DNA of 64,000 nucleotides from Porpolomopsis calyptriformis (lineage: Eukaryota > Basidiomycota > Agaricomycetes > Agaricales > Hygrophoraceae): positions 1,178,001 through 1,242,000 of the forward strand of contig OX621176.1 in assembly GCA_951640195.1 (NCBI GenBank). The letters run 5' to 3'. Positions 4,080-62,828 of the stretch are shown here, piece by piece. The translations under genes were made by a program, and so were the position numbers. Below the pieces are notes generated by a model, which had not been told where the DNA came from, made no database searches, and saw nothing but the letters and a program-made list of their open reading frames with translations. Position 1 is the stretch's first letter; the number at the start of each line of letters is the position of its first letter.

Positions 4080-4717
4080 ATGAGATTTACATCGCTCTTC
4101 ACTTCCCTAGCCATCGCCCTCACCTCTGCAACGCTCGCAGTTTCTGCCCCACTCAGAGTACGATCCATCGATAGGTTTGACTTCTACCCTCGCGCCCTGC
4201 GGGTCAGGGACATCGACGGAGGCGGTGTCGTCTATCTCTTCCGCAGGAGGTGTGTCTCTTCGCTATCTGCACCTCCGCATCCACACTGACATTCTCATAA
4301 ACACAACAAGCCAGCCCTCTGTAAGTAGCATGTCCATCCGCGAATCAATGCAGAGCACTAAATATCTACTTCTAGTCTCCTCCCCGCCCATCCCAGCCCA
4401 CTCCTCCCAGATTAACTGAACAGCCAACGGCCGCGGAGGGACCCGGGAGTGGTGTGAATGAGGATACCGATACCGTGAACATAATAGTGGATCCGGGCAC
4501 ACCGCCGCTCTCTCCAGTGACCCACCCAGGGACTAACGGCATTCATGATAACAGTAGACACTCATCGTCGCCCCCCCCGGAAGCGGATCCTCCCCGTGGA
4601 AGGCCGCGCCCCCTATCAGGGGATCATCCCACCCAACCCTCACAATCGCCCCGCGTGAACGGTCACTCACTACCACGGGTACTATTCCCCTTGAGTCAGC
4701 CCTCCCGGCACGGGTAG
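4080..4717 (+). CDS. Secreted micro-exon family protein, copy 1 (173 aa)
   Basis: Function unknown. My model is exons 4080-4249, 4311-4320 and 4376-4717. Exon 1 encodes a signal peptide ending near SATLAVSA, then a conserved segment with VRSID, FYPR and VRDID and a terminal FRRR that could be a Kex2-type site. Exon 2 is only 10 nt (CCAGCCCTCT). Exon 3 encodes a Pro/Ser-rich, probably disordered tail. Introns are 61 nt (GTGTGT...AAG, with CTGAC branch-like sequence) and 55 nt (GTAAGTAGCATG...CTAG, family A). The 10-nt exon has length 1 mod 3, joins phase 2 to phase 0 and opens the whole 114-codon tail, which supports the model. Four homologous intact genes in the window share exon 1 and the first intron positions. 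The tail differs from theirs. Confidence 0.75.
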
Positions 4718-19378: not shown

Positions 19379-19546
19379 GTTAAAGTTGTTCTGCGACGTT
19401 TCGGTCAAGTGGTCTTGAGTCGTTGTAAGAGACGCGTAATTTGAATCGTGAAGGAAAGTGGAGACGTCCGGCAGTTTATAAGGAGTGGTTCTAAAAATAG
19501 AGGTCAATTCTTGGCAGACGAGATGATGACAAACGAATGAATAGAA

Positions 19547-27466: not shown

Positions 27467-27817
27467 CCTTCTTGCTCTCTCCCCCTTACTTGATCCACCC
27501 TCGCTTTAACACTGGACGACGACGACGAAAACTTCTACGATTCCTCTGAGCAGAATAATCCTCTTTCTCAATCGCTTTACTCACAGACCCGGATCTTCCC
27601 AGACCCAAACGAAGAAGCCAGTCAAGCTTCTCCATTGCCGAGTATCGCACACGCTCTAGGAAGAACTCGAAGCGAAACAACTCGCTTACTCGCCGCCGCT
27701 CAGTCACAACGTCCCATCACTCCCCCTACTGTTAGGTATCAACCCTTCCCGTATCAACAACCGACTCGACCGTCTTCACCTTTAACAACACCTTCACCAT
27801 CACCATCACCAGATCCA

Positions 27818-29026
27818 ATGGGTTCTCGCGCTAACCCCCCTGTTCCCAACCTCAATGAAATCCTCGCAGTCATGAATGACTTGCGGAGGGAGATGGCCAA
27901 CTTGCAGACCTCGAATGCGAACCAAGCGGCAGAGATCCAGGATCTCCATCAACAACTTGCCGCTCAGGCTCAGGCTCAGCCCCCACCGGGACCTCAGCCT
28001 CAACCTCCTGCCGCTCCCCCCACCATCGAGATAAAGATGGCAAAGCCAGACGAGTTCACTGGTCGACAACAGGATGTCGACAAATTTATCAACAGCTGCG
28101 AATTGTATTTCATGGGGAAGCCATATCGCGACGAACACAAGATCCCCTTTGCCCTTTCCTTCATGAAGGGCATGATGGCCCAAACCTGGTCGGAGAAAGA
28201 GACCAACGACATGAGGACCGTCAACTGGACTGGCCCGACAGCTACCTGGGCCGCCTTCGTAGTTCGATTCCGCTCAACGTTCGAAGGAATCGACAGACAG
28301 TCCCGTGCTCGTAACGACATCAAGAATCTCCGCCAAGGAAAGAAGAAGATAGAAGACTATAACCTGCGCTTCGGCGCTTTACAGGTCGATACCGGTTTCA
28401 ACGACGCCGCCCTCATCGATCTCTACCAAGCTGGACTCGACTCCGAGTTCATAGAATACGTTTACCGACTCCCCGCCGTCCCTGCCACACTTCAAGAGTG
28501 GAAGGACGCCACAACACGTTATCAACATCAAAAGGACATTCTCGCCTCACAGAAACAGTCCTCCACGTCCCGACCCCAATACTCCAATCCCTTTCCTGCA
28601 CGAGGATCGTATGTGGCTGCAACGACGACCCGTTCAACGACAGCAGCCCCCACCGTCAAGAGAGAAGAACCTTCCTCTTCTGCCCGTACGATCCCATACG
28701 GGAATTGTTACTCCTGCGGCCAATCTGGCCACTTCGCAAATGCCTGCCCAAATCGAAACGCCGGTGATGCGAAGAATCTACCCGATACCTCTTCCTCACG
28801 TCGAGGAGGATACTTTCGAGGCAGAGGAGGCTATAGAGGACGAGGACGAGGACGAGGCAGAGACATACGTGTCGTTACCGCTGAGTCCCACGTGGAGAAC
28901 GTCAACTCGCCCGCTACATTGGCAGCGAGCGAGACTCCGTCGGACATGGCGAAGGTTGGTATACGCAATTGGTCGAATGATCGGAAGGAGAGGTTAGCAG
29001 CGGATTTGAGAGCCCAGGGTTTTTGA
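27818..29026 (+). CDS. Element B Gag polyprotein
   Basis: Structural protein that packages element RNA. The first ATG in the frame is at 27818 (MGSRANPPVPN). The frame is open upstream to a TGA near 27493 without an ATG, so a non-ATG start is conceivable. It holds a heptad-like helix (LNEILAVMNDLRREMANLQ), an Ala/Gln/Pro linker, the capsid-like core from IKMAKPDEFTGRQQDVDKFI, and a CCHC zinc knuckle CYSCGQSGHFANAC near 28708-28749, followed by an Arg/Gly-rich RNA-binding tail (RGGYRGRGRGRG). It ends with CAG GGT TTT TGA, the likely frameshift site into pol. Confidence 0.9.
   Translation: MGSRANPPVPNLNEILAVMNDLRREMANLQTSNANQAAEIQDLHQQLAAQAQAQPPPGPQPQPPAAPPTIEIKMAKPDEFTGRQQDVDKFINSCELYFMGKPYRDEHKIPFALSFMKGMMAQTWSEKETNDMRTVNWTGPTATWAAFVVRFRSTFEGIDRQSRARNDIKNLRQGKKKIEDYNLRFGALQVDTGFNDAALIDLYQAGLDSEFIEYVYRLPAVPATLQEWKDATTRYQHQKDILASQKQSSTSRPQYSNPFPARGSYVAATTTRSTTAAPTVKREEPSSSARTIPYGNCYSCGQSGHFANACPNRNAGDAKNLPDTSSSRRGGYFRGRGGYRGRGRGRGRDIRVVTAESHVENVNSPATLAASETPSDMAKVGIRNWSNDRKERLAADLRAQGF
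29017..29026 (+). promoter_or_regulatory. Element B -1 frameshift site (gag-pol)
   Basis: In the gag frame the codons are CAG GGT TTT TGA, so G GGT TTT (29017-29023) is a classical X XXY YYZ slippery heptamer next to the stop. The pol frame is -1 relative to gag and is open from 28981, overlapping gag by 46 nt. Confidence 0.65.
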
Positions 29027-32000
29027 AAGGTTCGGACGATATGCCCCACGTTGCGAACCATACCACTCGATGTACCACCATTTCTTGCAATTCATTTCGA
29101 ACTCTTGGTACTATCGAAAAGGGCGATTCAGGACTTACGATGGACGTTTGGATCAAGGCTTCAGACAGTGGCCGACGTGTCCCCGCCACGTGTCTTATTG
29201 ATAGTGGAGCTTCTGGGAATTTTATGGACGAGAACTTCGCAACTCGTTACGAGTTTACTCTTCAGGATTTGGAAACCCCAATCCCCGTACGGAATGCCGA
29301 TGGGTCAGAGAACCGAGGAGGCCCGATCGTTTTTGACACAGATGTCTGGATAGAAGCTCCAGGTGGACACACTGAAAGGATCCGTTTGGAAGTGACCGAC
29401 CTCGGATCCAAGTTTGATATAATCCTCGGCTACCCATGGCTCAGAGCTCAAAACCCTAGTATCGACTGGGAGAGTTCAACACTGGCTCTCGGAGGCAAAG
29501 AGATTTCCCGTCGGTATTGTAGCAGCGAAGCAGAGCCCTCTGTGGTAGAATCGGTCTCGCTGGCAAGTATTTCAAAATCGGACGAGTCTAGAGCCAGCAC
29601 GGTGGAGGAAGATATGCGAAAATTTGTACCGGAGGTCTATTGGAAAGACTATGCTAGTGTCTTTGCCAAGGAGTCCTTCGATTGCCTTCCACCTCATTCT
29701 GAATTTGATCACGTCATCGACCTCAAGGACGACTTCGTGCCTCAGAATGACAAGACTTATCCAATGTCCCCTCGAGAGATAGACTTTCTAGAGAAGTTTT
29801 TGGAAGAAAACGTGGCCACTGGACGAATATTCAAAGGAACCTCACCTCAAGCCGCTCCCTTCTTTCTGAGCAAGAAAGCCGAAGAAATCAACGCGAAAGG
29901 ACAAGACGCTGGATACAGACCAATCGAAGACTACCGTTACTTGAACCACTTTACCGTTCCTGATCGATACCCCTTACCACTCCTCCATCAAATTGTCCAA
30001 CAGCCTAAATTACGATCTGCTGCGCTGTTCACAGTTGTGGATATCCGATGGGGATTCAATAACATTCGAATCAAGGAAGGCGACGAATGGAAAGCCGCTT
30101 TCAATACGGTCAAGGGACTCTATGTTCCAAGAGTGATGTTTTTTGGTCTACGGAACTCTCCAGCTACGTTCCAACGGATGATCGATACGCGATTTGCCGA
30201 AGTGTTAAAATCAGGTTGTGTTTTCATCTATATCGATGACGTTCTCATCTGCGGAGATGATCTAGAAGAATTGCGTTACTGGACGTTCAAAACCCTCGAT
30301 GTCATGAAGAAGAACAAACTCTCCTGCAAACCTGTCAAATGCCAATTCGAGAAAGAAGAGGTGATCTATCTGGGAATGACCTTAACGAAAGGTCATATTG
30401 GAACCAATCCCAAGAAGGTCAAAGCCATAGCTGAGTGGCCTGAACCTCGAACCGTTAAACAACTTCAATCCTTTCTTGGAAGTGCGAATTTCTGGAGAAA
30501 ATACATCAAGGACTTCTCAAAGACCGCCCAACCACTTAACGAATTACTCCGCAAAGATACTATATGGGAATGGACCCCCAAGCGACAACACGCCTTTGAT
30601 CAGTTAAAACACTCCCTCACGAATGCCCCTGTCCTCGAAGTACCGAACCAAGACCTGCCGTACTGCTTGGAGACGGACGCCTCTGGTTTTGCCTTAGGAG
30701 GTATACTGTCTCAGTTGCACGAAAACGAATGGAAACCTGTAGGCTTTCACTCAAGATCTTTGACTCCCGCTGAAAAGAAATATCCGACTCACGATGCCGA
30801 GCTCTTAGCGATAATAGACTGTCTTAAAGCATGGCGACATCTTTTGGAAGGATCGCGACACGACCTTCTAATCCGTACCGACAGCCTCGCTCTCAAATAT
30901 TTCAGTACTGCTCGCGTATTGTTTGGACGACGTGCTCGTTGGTCAGAAATCCTGTCGAGATACGAGTATAAGATCGAGTACGTCCCAGGGAGAAAGAACA
31001 AGGCCGATGGGTTATCCAGGCGCCCGGATTATTTCGACGAGGGTAAAGGCGAGGTGGAAGATGAGGCTTTAATCGCAGATGAACATTGGATCAATTCGAT
31101 CGTCAAACTTTCAGAACCGGACTTTTTCGCAAGATTACGCTTCAAATTGCCGATACCGCACAAGATCTCACAGAAAATCGAGGATGCCTCACTGTTTTGG
31201 GACCAAGTCGATGGGTTGGTTCGCGATGTTGAAGGTCGAATTGTGGTGCCGGAGGAAGTATCTTTGCGCACAAACATAATACGACTGTCCCACGCCTACC
31301 CCCATGCTGGACACCCTGGCATTGAGAAGACGAAGGAGCTGGTGCTCCGAAACTTTGTTTGGGATGGCGTCTCTCAAGACGTTATCAATTACGTACGATC
31401 CTGTCCCGCTTGTCAACAGAACAAGAACTATCCTTCGAAACCGACAGGACTCCTACAACCTATACCCCCCGCTACCGAACCATGGACTGAGATTACCGTC
31501 GATCTCATCGTTCAACTACCTGACTCGCTTGGATACGACGCTGTGATGGTAGTCGTCGATCGCTTCACGAAACGTGCCCACTTTATCCCGACGACTTCCA
31601 ATCTCTCATCAGAAGGTGCTGCCCGACTTTTCCGTGATCACATTTGGAAACATCATGGATGGCCAAAGAAGATCATTTCCGATCGTGGAGTTCAGTTCGC
31701 GTCAAAGTTCACTGAAGCCCTCAATAAACTCTTAGGAACCATTTCTGGACTGTCCACTGCTTATCATCCCGAGACCGATGGTCAGACCGAGCGAACGAAT
31801 CAAGAACTCGAAGTCTACCTACGGTTCTATACCAACTTTATGCAAGACGATTGGTCCGAATGGCTGGCTTCTGCCGAATTTGCTTACAACAACCGACAAC
31901 ACTCTTCCACGTCACAATCACCCTTCTATTTGGAATATGGCCGTCACCCTCATTTGCCGATCACAATCGAATCCCCGAGTAACGTTCCCGCAGCAAACAC

Positions 32001-32553
32001 CTTTCATGAACGTCTCACGCGTGCTCAGAAGAGCGCTGGCGAATCACTATCACACGCTGCGGAATCGATGAAGAAATACGCTGATCGAAAACGGAAACTC
32101 TCTCCCTCCTTCAAAGTCGGAGAATTGGTTTGGTTAGATACCAAGAACATCAAGACGACTCGACCCGCCAAGAAGCTAGATAACCGAAGAACTGGACCGT
32201 TCAAGATTCTGAAACAAGTATCGGATCTTGCGTACCTTATCGATATCCCCGGAACTTGGAAACTCCATCCAGTCTTTCACGTATCACTCCTGAGACCAAA
32301 CGTCGAAGATAAGTTGCTCCACCCTGATATTACTGATACATCTCGACCTCCACCAGATCTGATCGAGAACGAAGAAGAATACGAAGTTGAATCTATTCTT
32401 CAGCACTCTGGAGTTCAACGCCGACGGAAATATTTGGTCAAATGGAAAGGCTATCCAATTGAAGAAGCTACTTGGGAAGAACGATCGAACGTCTTACGAC
32501 ACGCCAAGGAAATTGTGAAGACTTACGAAGATTCGATTCAAACGGCGACTTGA
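29023..32553 (+). CDS. Element B Pol polyprotein (PR-RT-RH-IN-chromodomain)
   Basis: Intact. Counting from 29023 as residue 1 (a TTG inside the overlap; translation probably enters by frameshift), domains in order are: aspartic protease DSG at 60-62, reverse transcriptase with YIDD at 403-406, RNase H with ETDASGFALGG (Asp 552) and the ATHDAELL-type and RTDSLAL motifs, integrase HHCC zinc domain at about 755-800 (HAYPHAGHPG, CPACQQNK), integrase core with Asp 827, Asp 887 and Glu 923 (35 residues between the last two, the usual DD35E spacing), a GPF/Y-like region (RRTGPFKIL), and a chromodomain at about 1117-1170 (KYLVKWKGYPIEEATWEE). It is a chromovirus-type Ty3/gypsy polyprotein. Confidence 0.95.
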   Translation: MKGSDDMPHVANHTTRCTTISCNSFRTLGTIEKGDSGLTMDVWIKASDSGRRVPATCLIDSGASGNFMDENFATRYEFTLQDLETPIPVRNADGSENRGGPIVFDTDVWIEAPGGHTERIRLEVTDLGSKFDIILGYPWLRAQNPSIDWESSTLALGGKEISRRYCSSEAEPSVVESVSLASISKSDESRASTVEEDMRKFVPEVYWKDYASVFAKESFDCLPPHSEFDHVIDLKDDFVPQNDKTYPMSPREIDFLEKFLEENVATGRIFKGTSPQAAPFFLSKKAEEINAKGQDAGYRPIEDYRYLNHFTVPDRYPLPLLHQIVQQPKLRSAALFTVVDIRWGFNNIRIKEGDEWKAAFNTVKGLYVPRVMFFGLRNSPATFQRMIDTRFAEVLKSGCVFIYIDDVLICGDDLEELRYWTFKTLDVMKKNKLSCKPVKCQFEKEEVIYLGMTLTKGHIGTNPKKVKAIAEWPEPRTVKQLQSFLGSANFWRKYIKDFSKTAQPLNELLRKDTIWEWTPKRQHAFDQLKHSLTNAPVLEVPNQDLPYCLETDASGFALGGILSQLHENEWKPVGFHSRSLTPAEKKYPTHDAELLAIIDCLKAWRHLLEGSRHDLLIRTDSLALKYFSTARVLFGRRARWSEILSRYEYKIEYVPGRKNKADGLSRRPDYFDEGKGEVEDEALIADEHWINSIVKLSEPDFFARLRFKLPIPHKISQKIEDASLFWDQVDGLVRDVEGRIVVPEEVSLRTNIIRLSHAYPHAGHPGIEKTKELVLRNFVWDGVSQDVINYVRSCPACQQNKNYPSKPTGLLQPIPPATEPWTEITVDLIVQLPDSLGYDAVMVVVDRFTKRAHFIPTTSNLSSEGAARLFRDHIWKHHGWPKKIISDRGVQFASKFTEALNKLLGTISGLSTAYHPETDGQTERTNQELEVYLRFYTNFMQDDWSEWLASAEFAYNNRQHSSTSQSPFYLEYGRHPHLPITIESPSNVPAANTFHERLTRAQKSAGESLSHAAESMKKYADRKRKLSPSFKVGELVWLDTKNIKTTRPAKKLDNRRTGPFKILKQVSDLAYLIDIPGTWKLHPVFHVSLLRPNVEDKLLHPDITDTSRPPPDLIENEEEYEVESILQHSGVQRRRKYLVKWKGYPIEEATWEERSNVLRHAKEIVKTYEDSIQTAT

Positions 32554-32718
32554 TTCGTTTGTCATCATTCCAGCTGTCCATTTTTGAATTCTATTTTTAG
32601 GTCGAGTTGGCACTTATAAGAACTCAGAATCGTTGATACGATTCCATCCAGTCATTCCCCACTTTCGGCGAACTTACCCAGTACTCTTGTTCCCAACGCC
32701 GCTAAACCATCCTTCATA

Positions 32719-33456
32719 ATGCCCGCCACTCGATCTCCCTCTCCTCAAGTCGCCATCAGACGCGCTGGACGAATCCCCTCGTCCGCCATCCTCCGTTCCC
32801 CTACCCCCGGTCCTTCCACCTCTTCCTCTTCCACTCGTCAACTACGCCGACAAGCTCGCGCACGCGCAGAGGACTTCTTCAGCGAATATCCCACTCAAAC
32901 CCCTCCTCCTGAAGACCCCGCCGTTACCATCTCGCGTCTTACGGTTCATAGCAACAGCGTCAGTAATTGGAACCGAGAACTCCGCCAAGAACGCGACGTT
33001 TTGAAAGCCGAGCTCAAAGCATCAGAGAGGAGCGCCCTGTATTGGAAGAACCGCTGGGACGAAAGTGAGCTCAAAGTCTGGGAGCTCCAACGACAGAAGA
33101 AGCGCACGTGGGTCGACTGCTACGACGTCACCACCCGCGCCGTCATCGTCAAACTCGTAGAGGAGAGCCGTCGAGCTGAACGACTCTCTCGAGAAGATTT
33201 CCTTCGCGCTCAACAAGACCTTGCGACGACGGAAACCATCATTGAATACGGTGCGTCAGTCGAGTACCCAATCAACCTCGACTTAGAATACCCGGACGAC
33301 GACGACGTCAAGACGGTCCGAGCCCCTTCCCCCATCGAAGCGGCCCCGGACGCTGCCCCCATCGCTTCCCTCCCAGTGGTCATCGAGGCCCCCACTGATG
33401 AGGAAATCCAGACTCAGGGCCCAGAGAACGAAACGCCCGACACCGCCCAAGTTTGA
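32719..33456 (+). CDS. Element B ORF3 (245 aa)
   Basis: Starts MPATRSPSPQVAIRRAGR, about 165 nt after the pol stop. The N-terminus is Ser/Pro/Arg-rich. A long amphipathic, charged helix follows (roughly 75-175: NRELRQERDVLKAELKAS, SALYWKNRWDESELKVW), then an acidic Pro-rich tail. It is related to the A and A' ORF3 across the whole length. The stop TGA overlaps a hairpin (arms 33455-33461 and 33467-33473) 17 nt before the LTR. I do not recognise a known domain. Position alone is not evidence of an envelope protein: no signal or membrane segments are present. Confidence 0.8.
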   Translation: MPATRSPSPQVAIRRAGRIPSSAILRSPTPGPSTSSSSTRQLRRQARARAEDFFSEYPTQTPPPEDPAVTISRLTVHSNSVSNWNRELRQERDVLKAELKASERSALYWKNRWDESELKVWELQRQKKRTWVDCYDVTTRAVIVKLVEESRRAERLSREDFLRAQQDLATTETIIEYGASVEYPINLDLEYPDDDDVKTVRAPSPIEAAPDAAPIASLPVVIEAPTDEEIQTQGPENETPDTAQV

Positions 33457-33490
33457 AATTCGGGTCGAATTTCCCGAAAAACGAGGTGTA

Positions 33491-33922
33491 TGTCACGGAC
33501 GTAAATTTTCATTTTCTCTTTATGTTAGTCATCAGTGCTTAGTCGGACAGGTCCTATCTTTACTTGGGATTCCCCAGGGATTCCCCACGATTCCTTATCT
33601 TTTCATATATCCTAGATAAGACCCATTTCATTTCCGACGATTATGTTTCACTTCTTCACATACTGTTTCACCTTTTCACATGCTCCGAGTCTCTTATCAT
33701 GCTTATCTTTACTCGTCGCATGTATTCCTCATGTATTCCCCGTGTTTACACTGACTCATCCGCAGTAGCGTAGTCAGTATATAAACCCCTAGTTAGTCGT
33801 ACTCAGACCTTAAGTCTGATTCCTCGTTAGCAACCCCAATAACTAGGACTCGAGATATCATCATCGTCTAGGGACAGAGCTCTCCGAAGTAAAACCATCT
33901 CATCAGCAACCAGTTTATAACA
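33491..33922 (+). repeat. Element B 3' LTR
   Basis: 432 bp, nearly identical to the 5' LTR. Confidence 0.93.
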
Positions 33923-36037
33923 TTGGCCAACACCCCAAAAACTGCGAGATCTCCAATCTTTTCTTGGCACCACCAACTTCTGGCGACGCTATATCAAAAG
34001 TTTCTCCTCAGTCATTCATCCCCTTTGTGGTCTCTTACGGAAGGATCAACCTTGGGATTGGTCTCCTTTGTGTTAAAAAGCCTTTGAACAACTCAAGCAC
34101 CTCATCACTACAGCCCCTGTCCTTCTCACTCCCTGGCCAGACCTACCTTATCTCTTGGAGACTGATGCCTCTGATTTCGGTATTGGCACAGTCCTATCTC
34201 AAAAACATGACAATGGTCGGCACCCTGTCGGCTTTTTCTTGAAATCCCTACTCCCTGCCGAGTATAACTATCCTACTCACAATCTGGAAATGCTTGCCAT
34301 CATCACTTCCCTCAAATATTGGTGCTATCTTTTAGAAGGTGCAAGGGATACTGTGTTGATAAAAACAGGCAATTTGGCGCTCAAATATTTCATGCAGAAC
34401 AGATCCCTCTAAAGATGACAAGCACATTGGATGGAATTTTTAGGCAGATTCGACTTCAAAATCGAGTACTCCCCTGGAGTCAAAAATAAAGCCGATGGAC
34501 TCTCTTGCTGACCCGATCACCGTCGTTCAGAAAAAGAAGAACTAGAAGGTTAAGCCCTCCTCCTTCCCGAACGTTTCATCAATGCTATCATTTCCATATC
34601 CAAACCTTCTTTCATGTCAAGACTTCATTTCCCTGACTTTAATCAAATCCCAGAGGACATTCTCATCAAATTATCCAATCCCTCTTCCAGCTACTCCTTC
34701 ACTAACAGAATTGTGAGAGATGCAGGAGATCATATTGTCATGCCAGCAGACGTATCGCTACATACAGAGATAATTTGATTAACCCACTCCCTACCCCATG
34801 GAGGCCATCCCAGAATTGAGAAGACACATGAGCTTGTGTTGCAGAACTACACCTGGAGTAGTGCTGCCCCTGACATCTGTGTATTTGTATCATCTTGTCC
34901 GACCTGCCAACAAGTCAAGCTTTATCCTTCAAAGCCTGCAGGTCTCCTAGAACCCATTCCCCCTTCATCTCGACCTTGGGAAGAAATCACCGCTGATCTA
35001 ATCATGGAACTTCCCCAATCATCTGGCTATGATGCTGTCTTAGTCATTGTCGATTGCTTTACCAAACGCACTCACTTCATCCTGACAACTTCAAACATTT
35101 CAGCAGAAGGAGTCGCAAAACTCTTTAGGGACAACATATGGAAACACTATGGCTGGCCAAAGAAGATCATAACCGATCGAGGAACTCAATTTGCCTCTAA
35201 ATTCGCGAAAGCTCTCAACACCCATTTGGGAATCATCTCCGGTTTATCTCCTATCACCCCCAAACTGATGGCCAAACGGAATGCACCAATCAAGAACTCA
35301 AGCAATACCTTCATTTATACACCAACTTTATGCAAGACAATTGGTCCAACTGGCTATCTCCAGCTGAATTCGTGTACAACAACTGACAATACTCCTCGAT
35401 GAAACACACTCCCTTTTATCTTGATACTGGCTAACATCCCTTTGTCCCATCTATCCCCGCAACTCCTACTTCCAATCCCGCAGCAGACGCCTTCCACAAT
35501 CATCTCACAGAAGCCCGTGGAGAAGCCTTAAAAGCTCTAGAAGCAATGGCCGAAACCATGAAACACTTTGCAGATCACAAACAGAAAGATACCCAACTCC
35601 AAATAGGTCAATTTGTTTATCTTGATACACATAACTTGAAGACAGGTCATCCAACCCTTAAACTCGATGTCTGACACACCAGACCTTTCAAAATTCTAGA
35701 GAGAATCAGAAAAGTCTCTTATTGCCTGGCCCTTCCCTTATCATGGAAAATTCACAACGTCTTTCACATATCACTCCTGAGACCCGCTAATATCAATTCT
35801 GATCTCCATCTAGAAGAAGTGGACAATAATCTCCACCTGCCCCCAGATGTTGTTCAAGAAAAAGAAGAATATGAGGTCAAACAAATTCTCCAATATCACA
35901 GGTCTACCTGATATTGCACGTATTTAGTCAAATGGGTCAGCTATCCCATTGAAGCAACTTGGGAGCTGAAGAAGAACCTACTCCATGCGAAAGAATGAAT
36001 TCTAGAATATGAATGATCAATTCAAACGGCGATTTAA
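33923..36037 (+). pseudogene. Element C pol, 3' part
   Basis: Continues after element B with LRDLQSFLGTTNFWRRYIKSF, RNase H (LETDASDFGIGTVLSQ), the integrase zinc domain and core (ITADLIMELP, ITDRGTQFASKF), and a diverged chromodomain (EEYEVKQILQYH, YLVKWVSYPIEATWE). It has multiple TGA stops and a frameshift near 35255. Ends SIQTAI-stop, matching the SIQTAT end of A and B. Confidence 0.8.
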
Positions 36038-39936: not shown

Positions 39937-40861
39937 ATGCGATCCACCTCGCTCTTCACTTACCTCGCCATCACCCTCACCTCTGCAACGCTCGCAGTCT
40001 CTGCCCCACTCAGAGTACGATCGATCGATGGGTTCGACCTCTATCCTCGCTCCCTGCAGGTCAGGGACATCGATGAACGCGATGTCGTCTATCTCGTCCG
40101 CCGGAGGTACCTCTCCTCATTACCTCTCTCCACATCCACACTGACATTTCTCACAAGCACAAACGACGACCCAAACTCCTCAAAGTGGTTTGTAAGTACA
40201 CGTCCATCCGTGAATCAATGCAAAGCACTCAACATGGCATCTACGAATCAGGATAATCTCCCCCAAACGCCCCCGTCCCCGAAGGTGGATACCCCGTCTA
40301 CACTCGAGAATATGTTGAAGAAGAACACAAAAGGCGGATTCGAACCGATTGCCCTAGCCTATCCCTTTAGTCCCCTTAGTCCCCTTAATCCCCCACCGCC
40401 GTCCCCAATCGCAGGTATGCAACGGCTGCGCCTCTAGTGACAGTGAACGCTCATCACCGTCCTACTTAGAGACCCCCCACCCCTATTCTCACGGGGGACA
40501 CGTACAGGTGCCAAGTGGACCCTCACAGGTGCCAAGTGGACCCTCACAGGTGCCAAAAGGACCCTCACACTACTTCCCACCGCCCCCAAGCGCAGGTATG
40601 ACCCAGCAGCCGCTCTTCTAGTGCCAGTGAACGCTCATTATAGAATCGACTCCCCCTCACCCCTATTCTCACATAGGACACCCAACGGGGCCAACCGACC
40701 AGCCCGCCGCGTCTACTTCAAACAACCCCGCTTCCGGAGAAGGGTCGACCCCCCCAAAAAAATCTAAAATCTCCAAAGTTTTGAATGCCCTAAAACGAGG
40801 TGGAAGGCGCAAACCAGATCCAAGTCGCAAACATCCGGGTCCTGGATCCACACACCGGTAA
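39937..40861 (+). CDS. Secreted micro-exon family protein, copy 3 (236 aa)
   Basis: Exons 39937-40106, 40158-40191 (34 nt), 40252-40414, 40470-40595 and 40644-40861; phases agree throughout. The signal peptide (LFTYLAITLTSATLAVSA) is followed by VRSIDGFDLYPR, LQVRDIDER and VYLVRRR. The tail is Pro-rich and contains a 21-bp repeat (VPSGPSQ, three times) in exon 4. The C-terminus is basic (KKSKISKVLNALKRGGRRKP). Intron 3 and intron 4 belong to a third conserved intron family (C, starting GTATGACCCAGCAGCCGCTC). Intron 4 could instead end at 40676, also in frame (33 nt shorter exon). Function unknown. Confidence 0.68.
40596..40643 (+). repeat. Family-C intron (exemplar)
   Basis: Starts GTATGACCCAGCAGCCGCTCTTCTAGTGCCAGTGAACG. 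Relatives are at 40415-40469, about 39119-39180 and 39219-39294. All occur in copy 3 or in the broken sixth copy. Confidence 0.6.
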
Positions 40862-41852: not shown

Positions 41853-41926
41853 TATAAAGCTCTTCAGCTCTTTCCCTAGAATCCCCCAGAGCTGGTCTCC
41901 AACCCATTTCACGAAATATACGCATC
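41853..41926 (+). promoter_or_regulatory. TATA box and leader of secreted family copy 4
   Basis: TATAAAG at 41853-41859 is followed by CCCAGAGCTGGTCTCCAACCC, with ATG 74 nt downstream. Confidence 0.7.
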
Positions 41927-44010
41927 ATGAGAATCACTTCGCTCCTCACTTACCTCGCCATCACCCTCACCTCGGCAACGCTCACAGTCTCTGCCCCACT
42001 CAGAGTACGATCTATCGATGGGTTCGACCTCCACCCTCGCTCCCTGCAGGTCAGGGACATCGATGAACGCGATGCCGTCGTCCATCTCGTCCGCCGGAGG
42101 TACGTCTCCTCATTACCTCTCTCCACATCTTTACTGACATTCTTAACATCACATAACAAGCAAGCGGCCTGTGAGTAGCGCGTCCTTCCGCGAATCAATG
42201 CAGACCACTCAATATCTCTACTTCTAGAAAACACCTTTGGGGGGCAGGTAAAGATTCCTGCCTTATCAAGCTGTGGTCCCAAAATCTAACACCCAGGCCA
42301 CCACTTTCTAGGAGTCAATCAAGGGCTGGGAGTATACCGCCAGTTCCCCCAGTTCCCCCAGTTCCGCAACTTCCGCCTGTAAGTAGCACGTCCATCCGCG
42401 AATGAATGCTGAGCACTCAATATCTCTACCTCTAGCAAAATCGAGACCAAGGCCGACGGACGCCTGGGCCTGGACCGCCAGCGGTAATGTTCGCACAACG
42501 ATTCCTGCCTGATCAAGTTGTACTCCCAAATCTAACAGACCTACACTGCTTGACAGCCTTCCGCCACCCGATTTATCGTCAGGCGCCGGACGAACACCTC
42601 AACGTCAACTCTCGGAAGGCACATGGCCGTCACTGCCGGGTGTAAGTAGCCCGTCCATCTGCGAATGAATGCAGAGCACTCAATATCTCTACCTCTAGTC
42701 GGGTGGAACACCTCCCCCGCCGCCGGTGTTACGAAGGTTCGCTGCCTGATCAAGTTGTAGTCCCAAAATCTAACACACCTCCAGGAAAGGGGATCCACCC
42801 AAGCTTCCTGTTCAGCCTGTAAGTAGCAGGTCCATCCGTGAATGAATGCAGAGCACTAAATATCCTCTAGGACCCAAAACCACCACGTGACTCACTGCAA
42901 CATCGAACTGCTAAAACCCTTCACCACATTCAACTGCCTGGAGACCCGCTACCCGGTAATAGTGGGAGTGGAAAACAACCGTCAAGGTTCGAACAATTGC
43001 TTGCCTGATCAAGTCGTACTCCCAAATCTAACATGCCTACACTGCTTGACAGTGCTCGTTGGCAACCCCCACCGTCGCCATCTAGTAATCAAGGATCTTT
43101 TTATCCTGGGCCGGTAGGTGGTCTCGTGGGCACAGGAGGCACCACAGGCAATCAGGTCGTAAGTAGCACGTCCATCCGCGAATCAATGCAGAGCACTAAG
43201 TATCCCCACCTCTAGCAACCTGGAAATCAGCCGGAGTCAGGAGTTAGGTCAAAGTTAGCACAACGATTCCCGCCTGATCCAGTTGTAGTCCCAAAATCTA
43301 ACACACTTGACAGGCCAACACAGTCACGCAAACCCTCAGTACCGCATACATTACAGGTTCCTACCTCCTACTCCGGGCCAGCAAGCGCTAGCTCCGGGAC
43401 TTCGGGAAGCGACTTCTACGGGGATGGCTCGATGGCTGTTCCACCTTTAATGCCCAGAAAACCCTCCGGTAACAAGGTGGCTGTAAGTAGCACGTCCATC
43501 CGCGGATCAATACAGAGCACTAAATATCCCTACCTTTATCCCCAGCCTAACCCATCTGTACCCCAAATCATAATACCCGACACAACTTCCAAATCGTCGA
43601 AAAGGGAGGGAGGGATTTTCAATTTGAAAGATCGATTTAAATCGCCTGGCGGGGGACAACCCGGAACTCGTGAACAAGCACTTGACCGGCTCCAGAAAAA
43701 CGCGGAGAATCCTGCGGGGGGTGGTGGGTCAATGCCTCCTCCCCCCTCCTCTCAACGGTCATCCGATCATCCGCCAAGCGCTTGGGGATCGTCAAGCGCT
43801 TGGGGATCGTCAGGCGCAACCCGCAGACTCTCTGTATCGTCAGTCCCATCAGGCAGTCTCCCTGGATCGTCACCCTCAACCCGCAGATTCTCTGGATCGT
43901 CAGTCCCACCCCACCAATCCAGTGGAGGAGACCCCAATATCCCTTCACCGCCCCCTGGAGGATCCGGAGGAAACAAAGGAAATCCCAAAGGAAAAGGGAG
44001 AGATTATTAA
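41927..44010 (+). CDS. Secreted micro-exon family protein, copy 4 (13 exons, about 457 aa)
   Basis: Exons: 41927-42099, 42161-42170 (10 nt), 42228-42247 (20), 42312-42378, 42436-42488, 42557-42641, 42699-42736 (38), 42785-42818 (34), 42871-42986, 43053-43158, 43216-43253 (38), 43314-43482 and 43546-44010. Exon 1 encodes the family signal peptide and VRSIDGFDLHPR...VRDIDER segment. Introns 2-12 alternate strictly between family A and family B. Exons before a B intron end in phase 2 and exons before an A intron end in phase 0, and all 13 join into one open frame rich in Pro, Gly and Ser. The last exon carries a IFNLKDRFKSPGGG segment and Ser-rich repeats (SAWGSS, RRLSVSSV/RRFSGSSV). The phase agreement over 12 junctions is strong support. 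Exon 4 may start at 42297 instead. Function unknown. Confidence 0.72.
42379..42435 (+). repeat. Family-A intron (exemplar of 12)
   Basis: GTAAGTAGCACGTCCATCCG...GAGCACTCAATATCTCTACCTCTAG. Copies: 4321-4375, 5614-5675, 40192-40251, 42171-42227, 42379-42435, 42642-42698, 42819-42870, 43159-43215, 43483-43545, 44785-44839, 45011-45067 and 45256-45310. Most differ at only a few positions, more alike than the exons they separate. Confidence 0.85.
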
Positions 44011-44548: not shown

Positions 44549-45901
44549 ATGAGATTCACTTCCCTATTTTCTTACCTCGCCATCACCCTCACCTCTGCGA
44601 CGCTCGCCGTCTCTGCACCACTCAAAGTACGATCCATCAATGGGTTTGACCTCTACCCCCGCACCCTGCAGGTCAGGGACATCAATGAACACCATGTCGT
44701 CTATCTCGTCCGCAGGAGGTGTGCCCCCTCACTCTCTGTCTCCACATCTTCACTGACATTCTTAACATAACAAGCGAGCCGCCTGTGAGTAGCATGTCTA
44801 TGCGAATCAATGCAGAGCACTCAATATCTCTACCTCTAGGGAAAACTACCGAGGCCAGATGGGCCAAGGGGGGCACGGGACCCAGGGCAACCATGGCCAG
44901 TAACGACAAGGTTCGCACAACCATTCCTGCCTGATCAAGTTGTAGTCCCAAAATTCTAACACCCACCCAGGCGGGGTGCCACTGCTGGTGGCTCGGACCC
45001 TTCCCACCCCGTAAGTAGCACGTCCATCCACGAATCAATGCAGAGCACTCAATATCTCTACCTCTAGGGAGGACAACCGAGGCCAGGTGGGCCAGGGGGG
45101 GCACGGCAGCCACAGCCACCACCGGAGCCAGTGGAGTTACAATCGCAAATGCCAAGGTTCGCACAACCATTCCTGCCTGATCAAGTTGTAGTCCCAAAAT
45201 CTAACACCCACCCAGGCCGGATGACACTGCTGGTGGCTCGGACCCTTCCCACCCCGTAAGTATCGCACCCTGTTGCTAATCAATGCAGAGCACTCAATAT
45301 CTCTACCTAGGGTAAACCATCTCTACCCCCAATCGTAATTCCAGATAGAAGGTGGGCACGCCACATCGATCCTAACGAATTTCAACCCCCAGTCTCCAGG
45401 GGCCCTTCACCGCCTGGGGCTGTACCGCCCGACACGAACCAGAACATTCCGGCAGCACCCCCCGTCATAGTTTTAACTAAACCTCCAGGCCATCACGCAA
45501 GTGTCCCTGGATCGCCAAACTCACTCACTCCTTTGTCACCCGGATCTAGGTTAAAGTCAAGCCCCGGAGGCTCCTCACTCCGCCGACTGTCACCCGGCGA
45601 AGGCTCCCGACCGCCATCCAGCCAAGGCTCCCGACTGTCACCCCCCACAAGCCACCTGTCACTCCCCAATGAGCCCAATGAGCCACACCCCGGCCAACAT
45701 AGGCCAAGCTCACTGGGCTCGACACACCCACAAACACAGCCACCATCAGCTGCTGGTCCTTCAGTCACTGGATCAGAGAGTCCTGGGGCGAGCGGCCCAA
45801 GATCCAGATTTTCAGTATCGCCAGCCGAGGAGCCAGGTGGCTTCTTTCGCAAACTCAAGAATAAATTTGGCAAGGGAAAGGGCAAAAAGGGAAAAGACTG
45901 A
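44549..45901 (+). CDS. Secreted micro-exon family protein, copy 5 (7 exons, 336 aa)
   Basis: Exons: 44549-44718, 44775-44784 (10 nt), 44840-44910, 44971-45010 (40), 45068-45156, 45216-45255 (40) and 45311-45901; all phases agree. Signal peptide LFSYLAITLTSATLAVSA, then VRSINGFDLYPR, VRDINEHH and VYLVRRR. Introns alternate A, B, A, B, A. Exons 4 and 6 are almost the same sequence, as are parts of exons 3 and 5, which shows a recent duplication of one A-exon-B-exon module. The last exon is Pro/Ser-rich with direct repeats (GSRLSP type) and ends in a strongly basic FFRKLKNKFGKGKGKKGKD. Function unknown. Confidence 0.75.
44911..44970 (+). repeat. Family-B intron (exemplar of 7)
   Basis: GTTCGCACAACCATTCCTGC...AAATTCTAACACCCACCCAG, with a perfect CTAAC branch site. 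Copies: 42248-42311, 42489-42556, 42737-42784, 42987-43052, 43254-43313, 44911-44970 and 45157-45215. The 5' splice site is the uncommon GTTCGC in most copies. Confidence 0.85.
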
Positions 45902-52588: not shown

Positions 52589-55500
52589 CTATACAGTCTG
52601 AAAATAAGAGTCCATGGACGTGAAATCAAGGATGACCACACGGCCATCCTTTGTGCCAAACACTACACGGTCCCCATTCGCATCCAGCATCCTCGGTCTA
52701 CAAGAGACCGGAATCCAAAAAATCCGCCGATTCTGAGTGATAGAGTAGACCCATCCGTCTGCGGCGATATAACCAAACACCGGACCAGTTGGATTTGAGC
52801 TATCGGTAGACGGGCGCTGGCATGAATGATAAGACCGCGCGGTCGACTGAACCGAGCTGAAATGTCCTGCTAGGGTCTTCAGATGTTCACCACCGAGTGC
52901 GTCCCACAGCCGAAGAGTGTTGTCGTGGGATCCAGAGACAACACCCGTGCCATCAGGGGTGAATGCGACCGAATTCACAAAGCTGGAATGCCCTATCAGG
53001 GTATTAAGATGTTGGCCATTGACTGCGTTCCACAGCCGAACGGTAGCATCGACGGATCCAGACACGATACGCGTGCCGTCTGGAGAGAATGCTACCGAAA
53101 GCACCCAATCGGAATGTCCCTCGAGGGTCTTCAGATGCTCAGCAGTGATGGCATCCCACATCCGAATAGTATTATCACGGGATCCAGAGACGATACGCGT
53201 CCCATCTGGCGAGAACTCGACAGATTCGACCCAGCTGGAATGTCCCCTGAGGGTGTTCAGATGTGCACTGTCGACTGGGTTCCATAGGCGAATAGCACCA
53301 TCAACCGATCCAGACACGATACGTGTGCCGTCTAGGGAGAATGCGACTGAAAGCACCCAATTGGAAGGTTTATCGATAGTGTTCAAATATGCACCCCTGA
53401 CTGCATCCCACAGCCGGACAGTGTTGTCGCCGGATCCAGACATGATAGGCGTAGTATCTGGAGAGGACGAGCCCAGGGTGGGATACTCGAGGGTGTTCAG
53501 ATCTGAACCGCTGGCCGCATCCCACAACCGAAAAGTACCATAGTCGGATACAGACACGATACGCGTGCCATCAGCGGAGAAGACGACTGGTTCAACATAG
53601 TCGGAATGACTCTCGAGGGTGTTTAGACGTGTACCGCTGACTACATCCCACAGTTGAATAGTACCATCGACGAGTCCAGATACGATACGCGTGCCATCGG
53701 GGGAGAATCTGACTGATTCTGCCCCGAGGAAATGCTCCCTGAAGGTGTTCAAACGTGCACCATTGATTGCGTCCCATAGCCGAATTGTATTGTCGAAAGA
53801 CCCAGACATAATACGTGTGCCATCAGGGGAGAAAGTGACTGAAGGCACACAATTAGAATGTCCCTCGAAGGTCTTCAGATGTGTACCACTGGTTGCGTCC
53901 CACAGGCGAACAGTATGGTCGGCAGATCCAGACACGATAAGCGTGCCATCAGGGGAGAATGTGACTGAGTATACACCCATGGAATGTCCCTCGAGGGTGC
54001 TTAGACGTTCACCGCTGAAAGCGTCCCACAACCAAATAGTATCACCGGATGCAGATACGATCCGCGTGCCATCAGGGGAGAATGTGGCACATTCTACCCA
54101 GTCAGGGTGTCTTTCGAGGGTGTTTAGGTGTGCACCGTTTACTGCGTCCCATAACCTAACAGTATCACCGGATGAAGATATGATCCGCGTGCCATCGGGG
54201 GAGAATGCGACACATTCTACCCAGTTAGAATGCCCTTCGAGGGTGTTCAGAGGTGCACCGTTGACTGCGTCCCACACCCGAACGGTATTATCGTAGGATC
54301 CGGACACGACACGCGTACTATCTGGGGAGAACGCGGCAGATTGTACACAGTCTGAATGTCCTTCAAGAGTTTTCAAATGTGCCCCAGTGGCGGCGTCCCA
54401 CAACCGAAGGGTATGGTCGCCAGATGCTGATACGATCCGCGTGCCATCAGGGGAGAATTCGACACATTCTACCCAGTTAGAATGTCCTTCAAGGGTGTTC
54501 AGATGGGCACCGCTGACTGCGTCCCACAACCGAACGGTATTGTCACCGGATGCAGAGACGATACGCGCACCATCGGGGGAAAATGCGACAAGGTAAACGC
54601 CTCTGGAATGTCCTTCTATCGTCCTTATACATGAATTCCACGACTTGTCCATTCCATTGTATATTTTCACCGGAAGGTCCAACTCCCTGCCATATATCTT
54701 TTTTATTGATGTTTCTTCGGGTGTGAACAGTAAAGCCGAGTGGTATATTTGAAGCGAACAACTGTTGATGATCCAGAAGAATTCTCGGGTAAACCGCTCG
54801 CAATCATGAAGTAAGTCCTTTGCATCAGTCATCCCTTCATCGGCTTTCTGTAGAATGGGATCAACATCACGCGTTGGAGAGAAAGAAGATAACATACTGA
54901 AATCGTCTTTTGAGCCACATCTAATGCAAGCAGTCCACTTCGAAGATCTCCTATCAGACTGAGCACCTCAAGCCAGTACAGTAAATAGTCTAAACAAAAT
55001 TCGTTTACGAGGCTGGCGAGATCGCCAGAGAAAGTCGCATTTTCTAGATGCCAAGACCAATGACGACATGCATACTGCAGTTCAGGTCGGATGCAAGTCA
55101 TCGCGCGCGTCTGAAGGTCGTCCACCTCGCTATTGAGCAATGAAGGATTTCTTATCCCACAGATGTCTCGCTTCAACTCCTTCATAGCAGCTAGACAAGC
55201 ATGCGCAAGTAACGTATGTTGTGTCTGGGGATCAACAACATATCTCGGATTCAGACATCGTGTTGGATTCGTTATGAAGTCGAAAAATGATGGATGGAGC
55301 GTTCGAATTACTTGCGTGTCGTCGTCAGGTACCATGATCACCGAGTGAAGTCGTCGGAGTGTTATTCCCACCGAAAGCGATGGAAGATCTAATAATCGTT
55401 CGAGAGCAACCGACGAGAGGGGGTCCCGAAGGAGAACAATGGTGCCCAGAATCGTCTTCAGTCGGTCAGAAAGGTGAGAAGATATATTAGGAAATGCATG

Positions 55501-57416
55501 GTTCAACACTTGACCGTATAATTGATCAAGGTTATAAAACGGGGACGAGCCTTCCATTGCCGTGGGCGCATTACAAACAAGACGAGAAAGTTGATGTTTG
55601 GGATCACAAAAGTTTTCATCTTCAATGAATTTAACAGACGTCGACGCAAAGATGAAAAGTCCAAAAGACATCTGCGTCAAGGCATCGATATCGGCGATAG
55701 AAGGCCATTCGTTTCCAAGTTGATATAACTCTCGCGTGCAAGTGATTTTCGTTGAAAGGAAGTGTTTGATATCATTTTGCACGACGCCTAGTTCCACTTC
55801 GTGTAAAACGTATCGCCGAGTCACCGGGTTCAATTCATTTGATCTGAAGACGGTAGTGATGTGACTTTCAGGCCGACTTGTCACTAAGAACTTCAGCGGG
55901 AACAATTCGTCGACATGACGAGAAAGCGACGATAGGATAATTGAGATCATCCCAGTCTCCTTGCACTCGTCGAGTGCATCCAAAACAACCACGCAGGGAG
56001 AGATCGAGTGTCTGATCAACTGAAGAGGTTTGATAATCAGTTCTTGGAGTTGATATGGAGGGATGGCATAGCCAATGTCGGGATTTGATTTCATAGCACG
56101 AGTAACCTCTGCTCCAAATAAGGGGTTGAATATCCCGAGCTGATAGGCGATACTCGTAAAGATCATATTCGGGTTGCTGCAATCGGCATCGTCACGTGAG
56201 CAGAAGAAGCTGGCTCCAAGAATATCAAATGTGTTGCACGCCTCCGCGACCGTGTAAGCAATCGTCGATTTCCCAGTCCCGGCCGATCCATTGATCCAAA
56301 AGATACAGGTATCTGTTGAAACGGTATTGGGCTCTCTGTCAAGAACGGCACCGATTTGAGGTTGCGAATCCCCGATACCACCAATCCAGCCAAAAATCTG
56401 GTGAAGAATGTCGGCTCTTGTACCTTCCAAGCATCCGGCTCGATATTTGCAGTTGAAGGGAGAAAAGAAGGCGTGTGGAGGGTGCTCGTCTAGGATGTAT
56501 ATGTTACCATTATCATATATCAATAAATACCAGTAATCACCTTTTGTATCTAATCTAGCATTCATTTTCTGGAAGGCAAGAAGTAAGAGTGATGTAACGA
56601 CAAATAGTGCAGGGAAAGCCTATACCTGAAATTCTCTTGTTGCAGTTTCATGAAGGTGGTTTACTTTCTCTTGGGTCCTGATTGCACGCTTCTCGGTCCT
56701 GGCGGTGTGTTGCTGAGAATACATGAGTGATGATCCCATTGGTAGCAAGAGATTAACACACATCAAGTGCGGATTCGATTGCAACCGTAGTCTCTGCCTG
56801 CATACAAAGCCCAACCATGAATATTCAAACGTCAAACTTCACAGGCAAATAGCCATACCGTAAACGCTTGCATCAACAATGTGATCGTCTGGGTATGACT
56901 GCTAATCAATTGTGCGTCGTCGGCAGAGCAGATAGAGCGCATTATGGCAGGTCTGGAAGCTATCTGTTGCAGTTGTTCTGACGCCGCATTCGATGTGCTA
57001 TGGGAACACAGCGTAAGCTGGTTCACCGTGGTATGGAGATAACATACGTGAACAAACGATCTATTCGGTCAATGGCCACCTGAGAAAGCGTCCCTCCATT
57101 CTTGGAACCCTCAAGGACTAGGTTGAAATTATGGATCTGCATTGTGAGTCTCTCGACGTCTTCTGCGTTTTGAGATGTTTTCTGCATTGCTCATCAGAAG
57201 ACGTCAATACACACAACAGAAGCGATCTGCCTTCATGACATCTATCGCGAGTAGCAGACCACCTATGGCCGCCTTTAATCCAGGCACTGCTGCGTCTCCT
57301 GCTGCTGCTTTGGCTATTCGGAGAGTTGCTTGCAGCGCACTAGCAGCAGTGGAACACGCCCGCTTCAACCTCTCTTTGTTCTCGGACTTTGGTTTGATAG
57401 AGCGGAACATTGTCAT
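52589..57416 (-). CDS. NACHT-WD40 NLR, copy 1 (14 WD repeats)
   Basis: Fungal STAND/NLR protein, presumed to act in non-self recognition or programmed cell death. The start is MTMFRSIKPKSENKER (57416, or the second Met at 57410). The N-terminal helical region (AGDAAVPGLKAAIGGLLLAID) and a heptad-like linker (HTARTEKRAIRTQEKVNHLHE) are on several short exons between 57416 and 56630. One long exon (about 56570-54898) carries the NACHT domain: P-loop WINGSAGTGKSTIAY, Walker B CVVVLDALDEC, LVTSRPESHI sensor. After a 50-nt intron (54897-54848), 52589-54847 encodes fourteen repeats ending in LWDA, most with FSPDGTRIVSGS cores (one truncated near 53480), then a non-repeat tail. A paralogue lies beside it at 58458-62828. 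The intron after exon 1 may use a GC donor. Confidence 0.82.
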
Positions 57417-61400: not shown

Positions 61401-62828
61401 TGAAGAGGTTTTATAATCAGTTCTTGGAGTTGATATGGAGGGATGGCATAGCCAATGTCGGGATTTGATTTCATAGCACGAGTAACCTCTGCTTTGAATA
61501 AGGGGTTGAATATCCCGAGCTGATAGGCGATACTCGTAAAGATCATATTCGGGTTGCTGCAATCGGCATCGTCACGGGAGCAGAAGAAGCTGGCCCCAAG
61601 AATATCAAATGTGTTGCACGCCTCCGCGACCGTGTAAGCAATCGTCGTTTTCCCAGTCCCGGCCGATCCATTGATCCAAAAGATACAGGTATCTGTTGAA
61701 ACAGTATTGGGCTCCCTGTCAACAACGGCACCAATTGGAGATTGTGAATCCCCGATACCAATCCAGCCAAAAATCTGATGAAGAATGTCGGCTCTTGTGC
61801 CTTCCAAGCATCCGGCTCGATTTTTGCAGTTGAAGGGAGAAAAGAAAGCGTGTGGAGGATGCCCATCTAGGATGCCTATGTTATCTTTATTGTATATCAA
61901 CGAGTGCCAGTAATCACCTTTCGTGTCTATTCTAGCATTCGTTTGCTAGAAGACAAGGAGTAAGAGAAAAGTAACGAGACATAGTAGATGGTTAGCCCAT
62001 ACCTGAAATCCTCTTATCGCAGTTTCATGAAGGTTGTCTATTTTCTCTTGGGTCCTGACTGCATGCTCCTCGGTCCTAATGGCGTGTTCCTCGGTCCTCA
62101 CAGCATGTGTCTCAGTCCTTGCGACATGTTGCTGGGAGTGCCTGAGTGAGGATCTCATTAGGGTAGGAAGAGATTAACACACATCTAGTGCAGATTCGAT
62201 TGCAAGTGTAGTCTCTGCCTGCGTACGAAACCAGGCAACGATTCTTATTATTCAAATGTCGAACTACGCAAACAAATAGCCATACCATGAAAGCTTGAAT
62301 TGAACATGTAATCATCTGGATATGGTCGATAATCAAATGCGCATCGTCGTCAGAGCGAATGAAGCGCTTTATGGCATGTCGGGAAGCAATCTTGTCCAGT
62401 TCTTTTAATGTTGCATCCGATGTGCTATGGAGACACGGGTTAAACTGGCTCACTGCGAAATGGGGGTAACGTACGCGAGCAGACGAGTTACTCTGTCAAT
62501 GGCTACTGGAGGAAGTGTCCCTCCATCCTTTGAGAGGAGTCGGTTGATTCCCTCGATCTGCTTTGAGAATCTCTCGATGTCTTCGGCGTTTTGAGATGTT
62601 TTCTGCATTACCGATCAGAAGACGTAAATCAAAACAGTTGTGATCGACCTTGATAGTGTCTAGCATGAGTAGCAGACCACCTATGCCTGCTTTCAGCCCA
62701 GGCACTGGAGCGCCTCCTGCCGCTTCTTTGGCTATTCGGAGAGTCATTTGCAGAGCGCTGACCGCAGTGGCACATGCCCGCTTCAACCTCTCTTTGTTCT
62801 CTAGTTTGGGTTTGATAGATGAGAACAT
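58458..62828 (-). CDS. NACHT-WD40 NLR, copy 2 (10 WD repeats)
   Basis: Close paralogue of the neighbouring NLR. Starts MFSSIKPKLENKERLKRA (62828). The N-terminal helical region GAPVPGLKAGIGGLLLMLDTIK joins KTSQNAEDIERF across an intron with donor GTCGAT. The linker contains a short repeat HAVRTEE/HAIRTEE/HAVRTQE (near 62110-62050). NACHT domain with P-loop WINGSAGTGKTTIAY (Thr where copy 1 has Ser) and CVVVLDALDEC; then, after the same short intron near 60250, a WD40 array of ten repeats (60230-58780) and a conserved tail with DGWVHSITRNQRICWIP. NACHT sequences of the two copies are nearly the same, whereas WD arrays differ in number and residues. Confidence 0.82.

Follow-up and report, generated by a model that had tools for sequence, protein, structure and literature searches.

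Several described systems bear on the gene family reported here. Introns are conserved within each conotoxin superfamily of Conus (PMC3862624). The citrus SCAmpP genes share their promoter, first exon and intron, and their divergence begins 6 bp past the intron (PMC4409773). Schistosome micro-exon genes (MEGs) encode secreted products using very small symmetrical exons that permit alternative splicing (PMC4350168), and the bicycle genes of aphids contain many small internal exons of biased phase and encode highly divergent proteins (PMC9168663). The SP7-like effectors of arbuscular mycorrhizal fungi are secreted repeat proteins of divergent sequence whose genes share a conserved intron ahead of the first repeat (PMC11333574). 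Introners and introner-like elements insert into many genes genome-wide (PMC9860276, PMC4457414), and introners of the DNA-transposon type are marked by target site duplications of 3-9 bp and/or terminal inverted repeats (PMC9860276).

Here, we describe a gene (gene F) that lies in a 64,000-nucleotide stretch of Porpolomopsis calyptriformis DNA, which is the window analyzed, together with its paralogues. Gene F is unusual in that amplified introns of two alternating types, A and B, are combined with unalignable exons. We propose, with a probability of roughly 0.6, that gene F belongs to a secreted pre-pro protein family that has grown by in-frame intron-exon modules, whose exons would diversify fast and whose introns would change more slowly. 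In the way it works, the family resembles conotoxins, the SCAmpP genes of citrus, schistosome MEGs and the bicycle genes of aphids, but the membership criteria tested for conotoxins, MEGs and bicycle genes place it outside those groups. The conotoxin-like pattern of a conserved signal/pro exon, conserved introns and a hypervariable mature part is found in the family, with one paralogue pair (g2 and c4) as an exception. However, conotoxin genes are animal genes with two or three exons, introns longer than 3 kb and cysteine scaffolds, the cited text on them describes no amplified intron-exon modules, and a cysteine framework is absent from all nine mature parts of the present family. SCAmpP genes are resembled by another paralogue pair (h1 and h2), which is alike through intron A and divergent afterwards, but the plant genes have a single intron and encode precursors of cyclic peptides of ~50 residues. 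Conotoxins and SCAmpPs fit the family at least as well as the schistosome MEGs, to which the first-pass annotation had likened gene F. The likeness to MEGs is confined to architecture. In MEGs, very small symmetric exons make up most of the coding region, whereas 11/11 internal exons of gene F are 1 or 2 modulo 3 in length, only exon pairs are symmetric and the introns are repeated copies. Bicycle genes have CYC motifs and almost all internal exons in one phase, whereas the phases of gene F alternate between 0 and 2 and its mature part is cysteine-free. Introners share with A and B the occurrence of sequence-similar introns at several places, but the A and B cores were found in one family rather than in many unrelated genes (up to 3 mismatches), with module order and phase kept. 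The SP7-like effectors are, like this family, fungal, and they are secreted; this likeness is one of description, and they differ in being specific to Glomeromycotina and, in the cited text, in having no amplified introns. In a literature coverage that leaves subscription journals mostly outside, no alternating amplified introns with unrelated exons were found.

Predicted architecture of gene F

The model of gene F was built by enumerating donor and acceptor options around each A and B copy and retaining the open-frame choices. The resulting sequence model (41927-44010, + strand) consists of 13 exons and 12 GT-AG introns, with a frame that is open from the ATG to the stop codon, and this layout is a well-supported predicted gene architecture with the following features.

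41853..41926, +, promoter end and 5' UTR; TATAAA upstream in 7/9 family members, GAGCTGGTCTCC in 6/9
41927..42099, +, exon 1, predicted signal peptide and pro-region, Arg-Arg end, phase 2
42100..42160, +, intron 1 (I1)
42161..42170, +, 10-nt mini-exon, phase 0 at its end
42171..42227, +, intron A1, ancestral position; nhmmer 67.9 bits; groups with A of h1/h2
42228..42247, +, exon a1, 20 nt
42248..42296, +, intron B1, donor shifted
42297..42378, +, exon b1, 82 nt
42379..42435, +, intron A2, from profile search
42436..42488, +, exon a2, 53 nt
42489..42556, +, intron B2, alternative in-frame acceptor at 42538
42557..42641, +, exon b2, 85 nt
42642..42698, +, intron A3, from profile search
42699..42736, +, exon a3, 38 nt
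42737..42784, +, intron B3, donor shifted
42785..42818, +, exon b3, 34 nt
42819..42870, +, intron A4, short 3' end
42871..42986, +, exon a4, 116 nt
42987..43052, +, intron B4, closest to B2 (59/66)
43053..43158, +, exon b4, 106 nt
43159..43215, +, intron A5, from profile search
43216..43253, +, exon a5, 38 nt
43254..43313, +, intron B5, 60 nt, open if retained
43314..43482, +, exon b5, 169 nt
43483..43545, +, intron A6, 63 nt, 3' end extended, open if retained
43546..44010, +, last exon, 465 nt including the stop; its nt 3-35 align with the g5 last exon (27/33)

The introns follow the order I1, A1, B1, A2, B2, A3, B3, A4, B4, A5, B5, A6, with six A and five B copies, and the exons measure 173, 10, 20, 82, 53, 85, 38, 34, 116, 106, 38, 169 and 465 nt, of which exon 1 and the last exon supply 638 of the 1389 coding nucleotides. 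The open frame and the strict alternation past the mini-exon bear out the thirteen-exon A,B,A,B gene of the first-pass annotation, and its size range of 10-169 nt for the mini-exons also holds (10 nt for the mini-exon, 20-169 nt for the other internal exons). Its phase rule was recovered at every junction. All five exons that precede a B intron (20, 53, 38, 116 and 38 nt) are 2 modulo 3 in length, and all six that precede an A intron (10, 82, 85, 34, 106 and 169 nt) are 1 modulo 3, with phase 2 ahead of 5/5 B introns and phase 0 ahead of 6/6 A introns; the same rule applies to the two B and three A introns of the neighbouring gene g5. The length rule is obeyed by 10/10 internal exons a1-b5. 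The module frame alone is stop-free in 10/10 of these exons, the two non-module frames being closed in 3/10 and 5/10, and this openness exceeds chance, since in dinucleotide shuffles all ten exons were open in the module frame in 6 of 2000 sets.

For B2, either of two acceptors (42538 or 42556) keeps the frame, and the predicted protein would be 468 or 462 aa long. B5 and A6 (region 43216-44010) are multiples of three and stop-free, so that transcripts retaining these introns would keep an open frame at the 3' end. The 3' ends of A4 and A6 are altered, and the donors of B1 and B3 are shifted. Does this reflect a decaying tandem repeat that is no longer a working gene? The altered ends of B1, B3 and A4 and the many small insertions that separate the paralogues c4 and g2 are in line with such decay, but a frame of 462 codons that is open across 13 exons, a promoter end that is similar among members and an exon 1 in which dN is below dS in every gene pair make a pseudogene very improbable.

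A family with a shared 5' part

The genome was searched with the signal exon (exon 1), and the nine family genes obtained are a lower bound. Five of them lie in the window, in agreement with the five copies first reported, and the genome-wide search extends this count with h1 and h2, ~155 kb to the left on the same contig, and one gene each on contigs C4 and C13. The window paralogues g1, g2, g3 and g5 start at ATG 4080, 5372, 39937 and 44549.

4080..4717, +, paralogue g1, one A, no B, 173 aa
5372..6182, +, paralogue g2, one A, no B, 229 aa; last exon alignable with c4
39937..40861, +, paralogue g3, one A, no B, 236 aa; intron type C twice
44549..45901, +, paralogue g5, 7 exons, three A and two B, 336 aa; modules 44840-45067 and 45068-45310
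Locus L009, same contig, ~155 kb left of the window, - strand, paralogues h1 and h2, a tandem pair
Contig C4, locus L010 3132-3901, paralogue c4, one A, no B
Contig C13, locus L011, paralogue c13, one A, no B

All nine genes have a common 5' part that comprises the signal-plus-pro exon, intron 1 and the intron A position, where the intron closes a phase-0 exon in 9/9 genes. A profile search still recognises intron A in c4 and c13, though weakly (E 0.004 and 4e-7, respectively). The second exon measures 10 nt in F, g1, g5, h1, h2 and c4, and 22, 34 and 175 nt in g2, g3 and c13, respectively. Over the 36 pairs of the nine genes, the 90 nt upstream of the ATG are 54-87% identical, and dN is lower than dS in exon 1 in 36/36 pairs. 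In the predicted exon 1 product, a hydrophobic leader is followed by a conserved part that is pro-like. Arg-Arg closes this part in 7/9 genes; h2 has His-Arg there, and c13 has Pro-Arg. Past this 5' part, the number of modules is 0 in seven genes (one A, no B), 2 in g5 and 5 in gene F; the modular layout proposed at the outset thus finds support in the sequence, being symmetric by exon pairs and present in 0, 2 or 5 copies among paralogues. Between c4 and g2, many small insertions are spread through exons and introns, with the frame still kept.

In g3, two copies of a further intron type, C, occupy 40415-40469 and 40596-40643, both in phase 1, and their exons align over 33/42 nt. This pair indicates that intron-exon duplication has occurred at least twice in the family, independently in the case of C. 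A scan of 108 kb for direct repeats returned 27 short close repeats, of which 24 were of this family, two of WD40 regions and one of locus L013; the scan missed the C pair of g3 and is therefore not fully sensitive.

The tandem pair h1/h2 invites a different account of the variable 3' exons, in which recombination places a cassette from promoter to intron A onto other downstream sequence and creates new 3' exons at once. The two genes are alike upstream (86%), in I1 (100%) and in intron A (93%), and no useful alignment was obtained between their last exons (z 3.2) or 400 nt downstream (z -1.1), a shape also described for citrus SCAmpP-3/-4 (PMC4409773). However, the last exons of h1 and h2 carry the C-terminal motif of g2 and g5 and look like old homologues, and capture alone leaves the repeated A/B modules within one gene unexplained. 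We consider it unlikely. A captured last exon was also sought directly for gene F and discarded: the genome has no second copy of 43314-44010 beyond the A intron.

The surroundings of the family were inspected as well. Neighbouring gene regions at 52589-56619 and 58458-61945 (-) of the window contain NACHT (NPHP3_N) and WD40-repeat frames. Among the 120 matches listed for one NACHT protein of the window, the named relatives are agaricomycetes of the genera Mycena, Jaapia, Athelia and Ramaria (48-55% identity), which makes an agaricomycete genome likely, and metagenome matches reach 68% identity. A search for 5.8S yielded no match. Ty3-type retroelement frames lie beside the family at 11900-21055 and 27494-35402, including a long frame with a chromodomain at 28981-32553. 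Exon-wise searches of the genome, which are weak evidence, gave 0 matches for pectate lyase and one gene region for peroxidase.

Conserved introns, divergent exons and the proposed origin of the modules

Sequence similarity drops at the splice sites of the A and B introns. Within gene F, the six A introns are 73-95% identical (mean 85%) and the five B introns 74-89% (mean 83%), values for which the initial description of the copies as near-identical was too strong. All A pairs and B pairs, including those of g5, lie far above shuffles (minimum z 13.6 for A and 9.6 for B). The exons between these copies are unalignable, in line with the different Pro-rich sequences first noted for the mini-exons: exon pairs within gene F are near the shuffle level (10 pairs of each kind, with z at most 2.8 among a exons and 1.6 among b exons), and the best likeness between F and g5 exons is that of a5 with g5 a2 (z 3.4). 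On the 5' side of A, the first 15 nt of the intron have a mean column identity of 0.92, versus 0.39 for the preceding exon, and on the 3' side the last 15 nt have 0.67, versus 0.28 for the following exon. For B, mean column identity is 0.50 inside at either end, a value lowered by B length changes, versus 0.35 and 0.31 outside.

The introns were also measured against the synonymous sites of exon 1. Intron A is less diverged than these sites in 24/36 gene pairs and equally or more diverged in 12/36; its 5' core is less diverged in 32/36, and I1 in just 15/36. In the g2/c4 pair, the last exon (361/421) is at least as conserved as the introns (80 and 85%), which argues against a general rule of slow introns. 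The rapid diversification expected of the mature part was observed against exon 1, relative to which it is much faster, and mostly, but not always, against the introns.

Introns that resemble one another between exons that do not could have arisen by transposition, with introner-like A and B elements copied into one long proline-rich exon and the resulting exons never homologous. The abrupt loss of similarity at splice sites and the unrelated exons agree with this scenario, and a proline-rich frame could conceivably bias the insertion phase. The opposing evidence makes transposition quite unlikely. Six A and five B introns that alternate strictly, each type in one phase, are improbable products of independent insertions. 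Matches between exon end and intron end amount to 3 nt at 1/18 introns, where they also coincide with the splice consensus, and to 0-2 nt at the other 17, and the exon end matches the start of the next exon over 1 nt at most. All 11 genome matches of the A core and all 7 of the B core, at up to 3 mismatches, fall inside the family; this limit misses more diverged copies, including five A copies of the family itself. Furthermore, the exons of the two g5 modules are clearly homologous to each other (z 16.9 and 22.6). The strict alternation, the fixed phases, the lack of clear target duplications and the absence of the cores elsewhere at up to 3 mismatches together favour module duplication over insertion.

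The g5 modules are the youngest pair. The two B introns of g5 are identical at 59/59 aligned bases with one 1-nt gap, and the adjoining A introns differ more, with 4 and 6 mismatches as well as gaps. In the 27 ungapped codons, a set chosen by the analyst, there are 10 changes in 81 nt and 8/8 changed codons are nonsynonymous (24 synonymous and 57 nonsynonymous sites, dN 0.20, dS 0), with one-sided Fisher p values of 0.023 for nonsynonymous versus synonymous changes and 0.003 for exons versus intron B. Over the complete alignment with gaps (36 codons), there are two further changes, both synonymous, and the values become dN 0.25 and dS 0.20. In the last exon of g2/c4 (147 codons), dN/dS values are 0.32/0.24 (NG86), 0.40/0.15 (YN00) and 0.33/0.26 (LWL85), and dN is not above dS in 7.6% of bootstrap replicates, which places equality within range; exon 1 of the same pair gives dN 0.009 and dS 0.050. 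These selection tests are small, covering one g5 module pair and one g2/c4 pair. The mature region may alternatively be an unconstrained disordered linker that drifts through slippage and indels with no arms race. Its proline content of 7-26% and freedom from cysteine in nine mature parts, a dN/dS that is close to 1 or slightly higher in the larger comparison and length differences between homologous modules are compatible with relaxed drift, but the frame is kept in 10/10 internal exons of gene F and the ungapped g5 pair has 0 synonymous versus ten nonsynonymous changes. Drift of this kind is possible, though rather unlikely. The rival readings are partly compatible with one another and not all mutually exclusive.

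We return to growth by modules as the preferred reading. A unit of exon a, intron B, exon b and intron A would have arisen in the ancestor of the 41927 and 44549 genes and multiplied through tandem duplication. Similar introns in identical phase would permit unequal crossing-over, or A-to-A splicing, to add or drop modules in frame. Under diversifying selection, the exons would then have diverged in length and through substitutions that alter the amino acid, with the introns changing more slowly. Diversification by modules is a likely mechanism on this sequence comparison. A bolder version is tentative, at somewhat less than even odds: the alternating intron pair may be a fixed scaffold for in-frame gain, loss and recombination of hypervariable exon cassettes, in which the inherited units would be the introns rather than the exons, and both genes and isolates would differ in their number of modules.

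The history of individual copies is partly visible. A1 of gene F groups with A of h1/h2 (support 0.93), apart from A2-A6, which argues against a simple or recent homogenisation inside gene F, although the A-intron tree, which is short, is noisy and has several nodes with support below 0.5. B2 and B4 form the closest B pair (59/66) and have a longer 3' end in common, and the exons that flank them show no clear alignment (z 2.1 for a2/a4 and -0.4 for b2/b4). To trace B, three B copies were compared with I1, A, C, the last exons and two upstream parts. Matches to I1 of g2 (10 nt, p 0.013 and 0.023) and to the g2 last exon (p 0.000 and 0.003) were unconvincing as origins among approximately two dozen targets per query. 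RNA folding of three A and two B introns was no better than that of shuffles, and no pairing was found in three A/B pairs; one A intron was self-complementary beyond 300 shuffles, yet its folding was no better than that of shuffles.

Predicted product and significance

The mature parts range from 43 to 405 aa, with a proline content of at least 14% in 8/9 members. A C-terminal motif resembling F-x-x-L/W-K-x-x-F, whose rows were chosen by eye from six members including F and c4, passes leave-one-out testing in g2, g5, h1 and h2 (0-5/1000 shuffles) and fails it in g1, g3, c4, c13 and F. Three family proteins matched no Pfam family, and a shared-word search of 5.8 billion proteins found no relatives, which is weak evidence because intron-containing genes may be poorly predicted in protein sets. 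A kexin-repeat protein was considered and rejected, given that the mature part has few dibasic sites and these do not occur once in each module.

From these sequence features, we infer that the family proteins are probably secreted, kexin-cleaved and disordered. The product would most likely be cut by a kexin protease past the basic site that closes exon 1, releasing a proline-rich, disordered protein with a basic amphipathic C-terminal helix in some members. The best reading of the family is an orphan, lineage-restricted set of probably secreted, proline-rich and probably disordered pre-pro proteins. The most likely role would be at the interface with another organism, either host or competitor, which is a guess by analogy.

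Gene F joins, in one fungal gene, hypervariable mature exons that lie between conserved introns with frame-symmetric units of small exons, and adds to these features a difference in module number between neighbouring paralogues. Genes of such build easily escape protein homology searches. If transcripts confirm the predicted junctions, this family would provide a compact system for studying how secreted proteins gain in-frame pieces and why introns can outlast exons.
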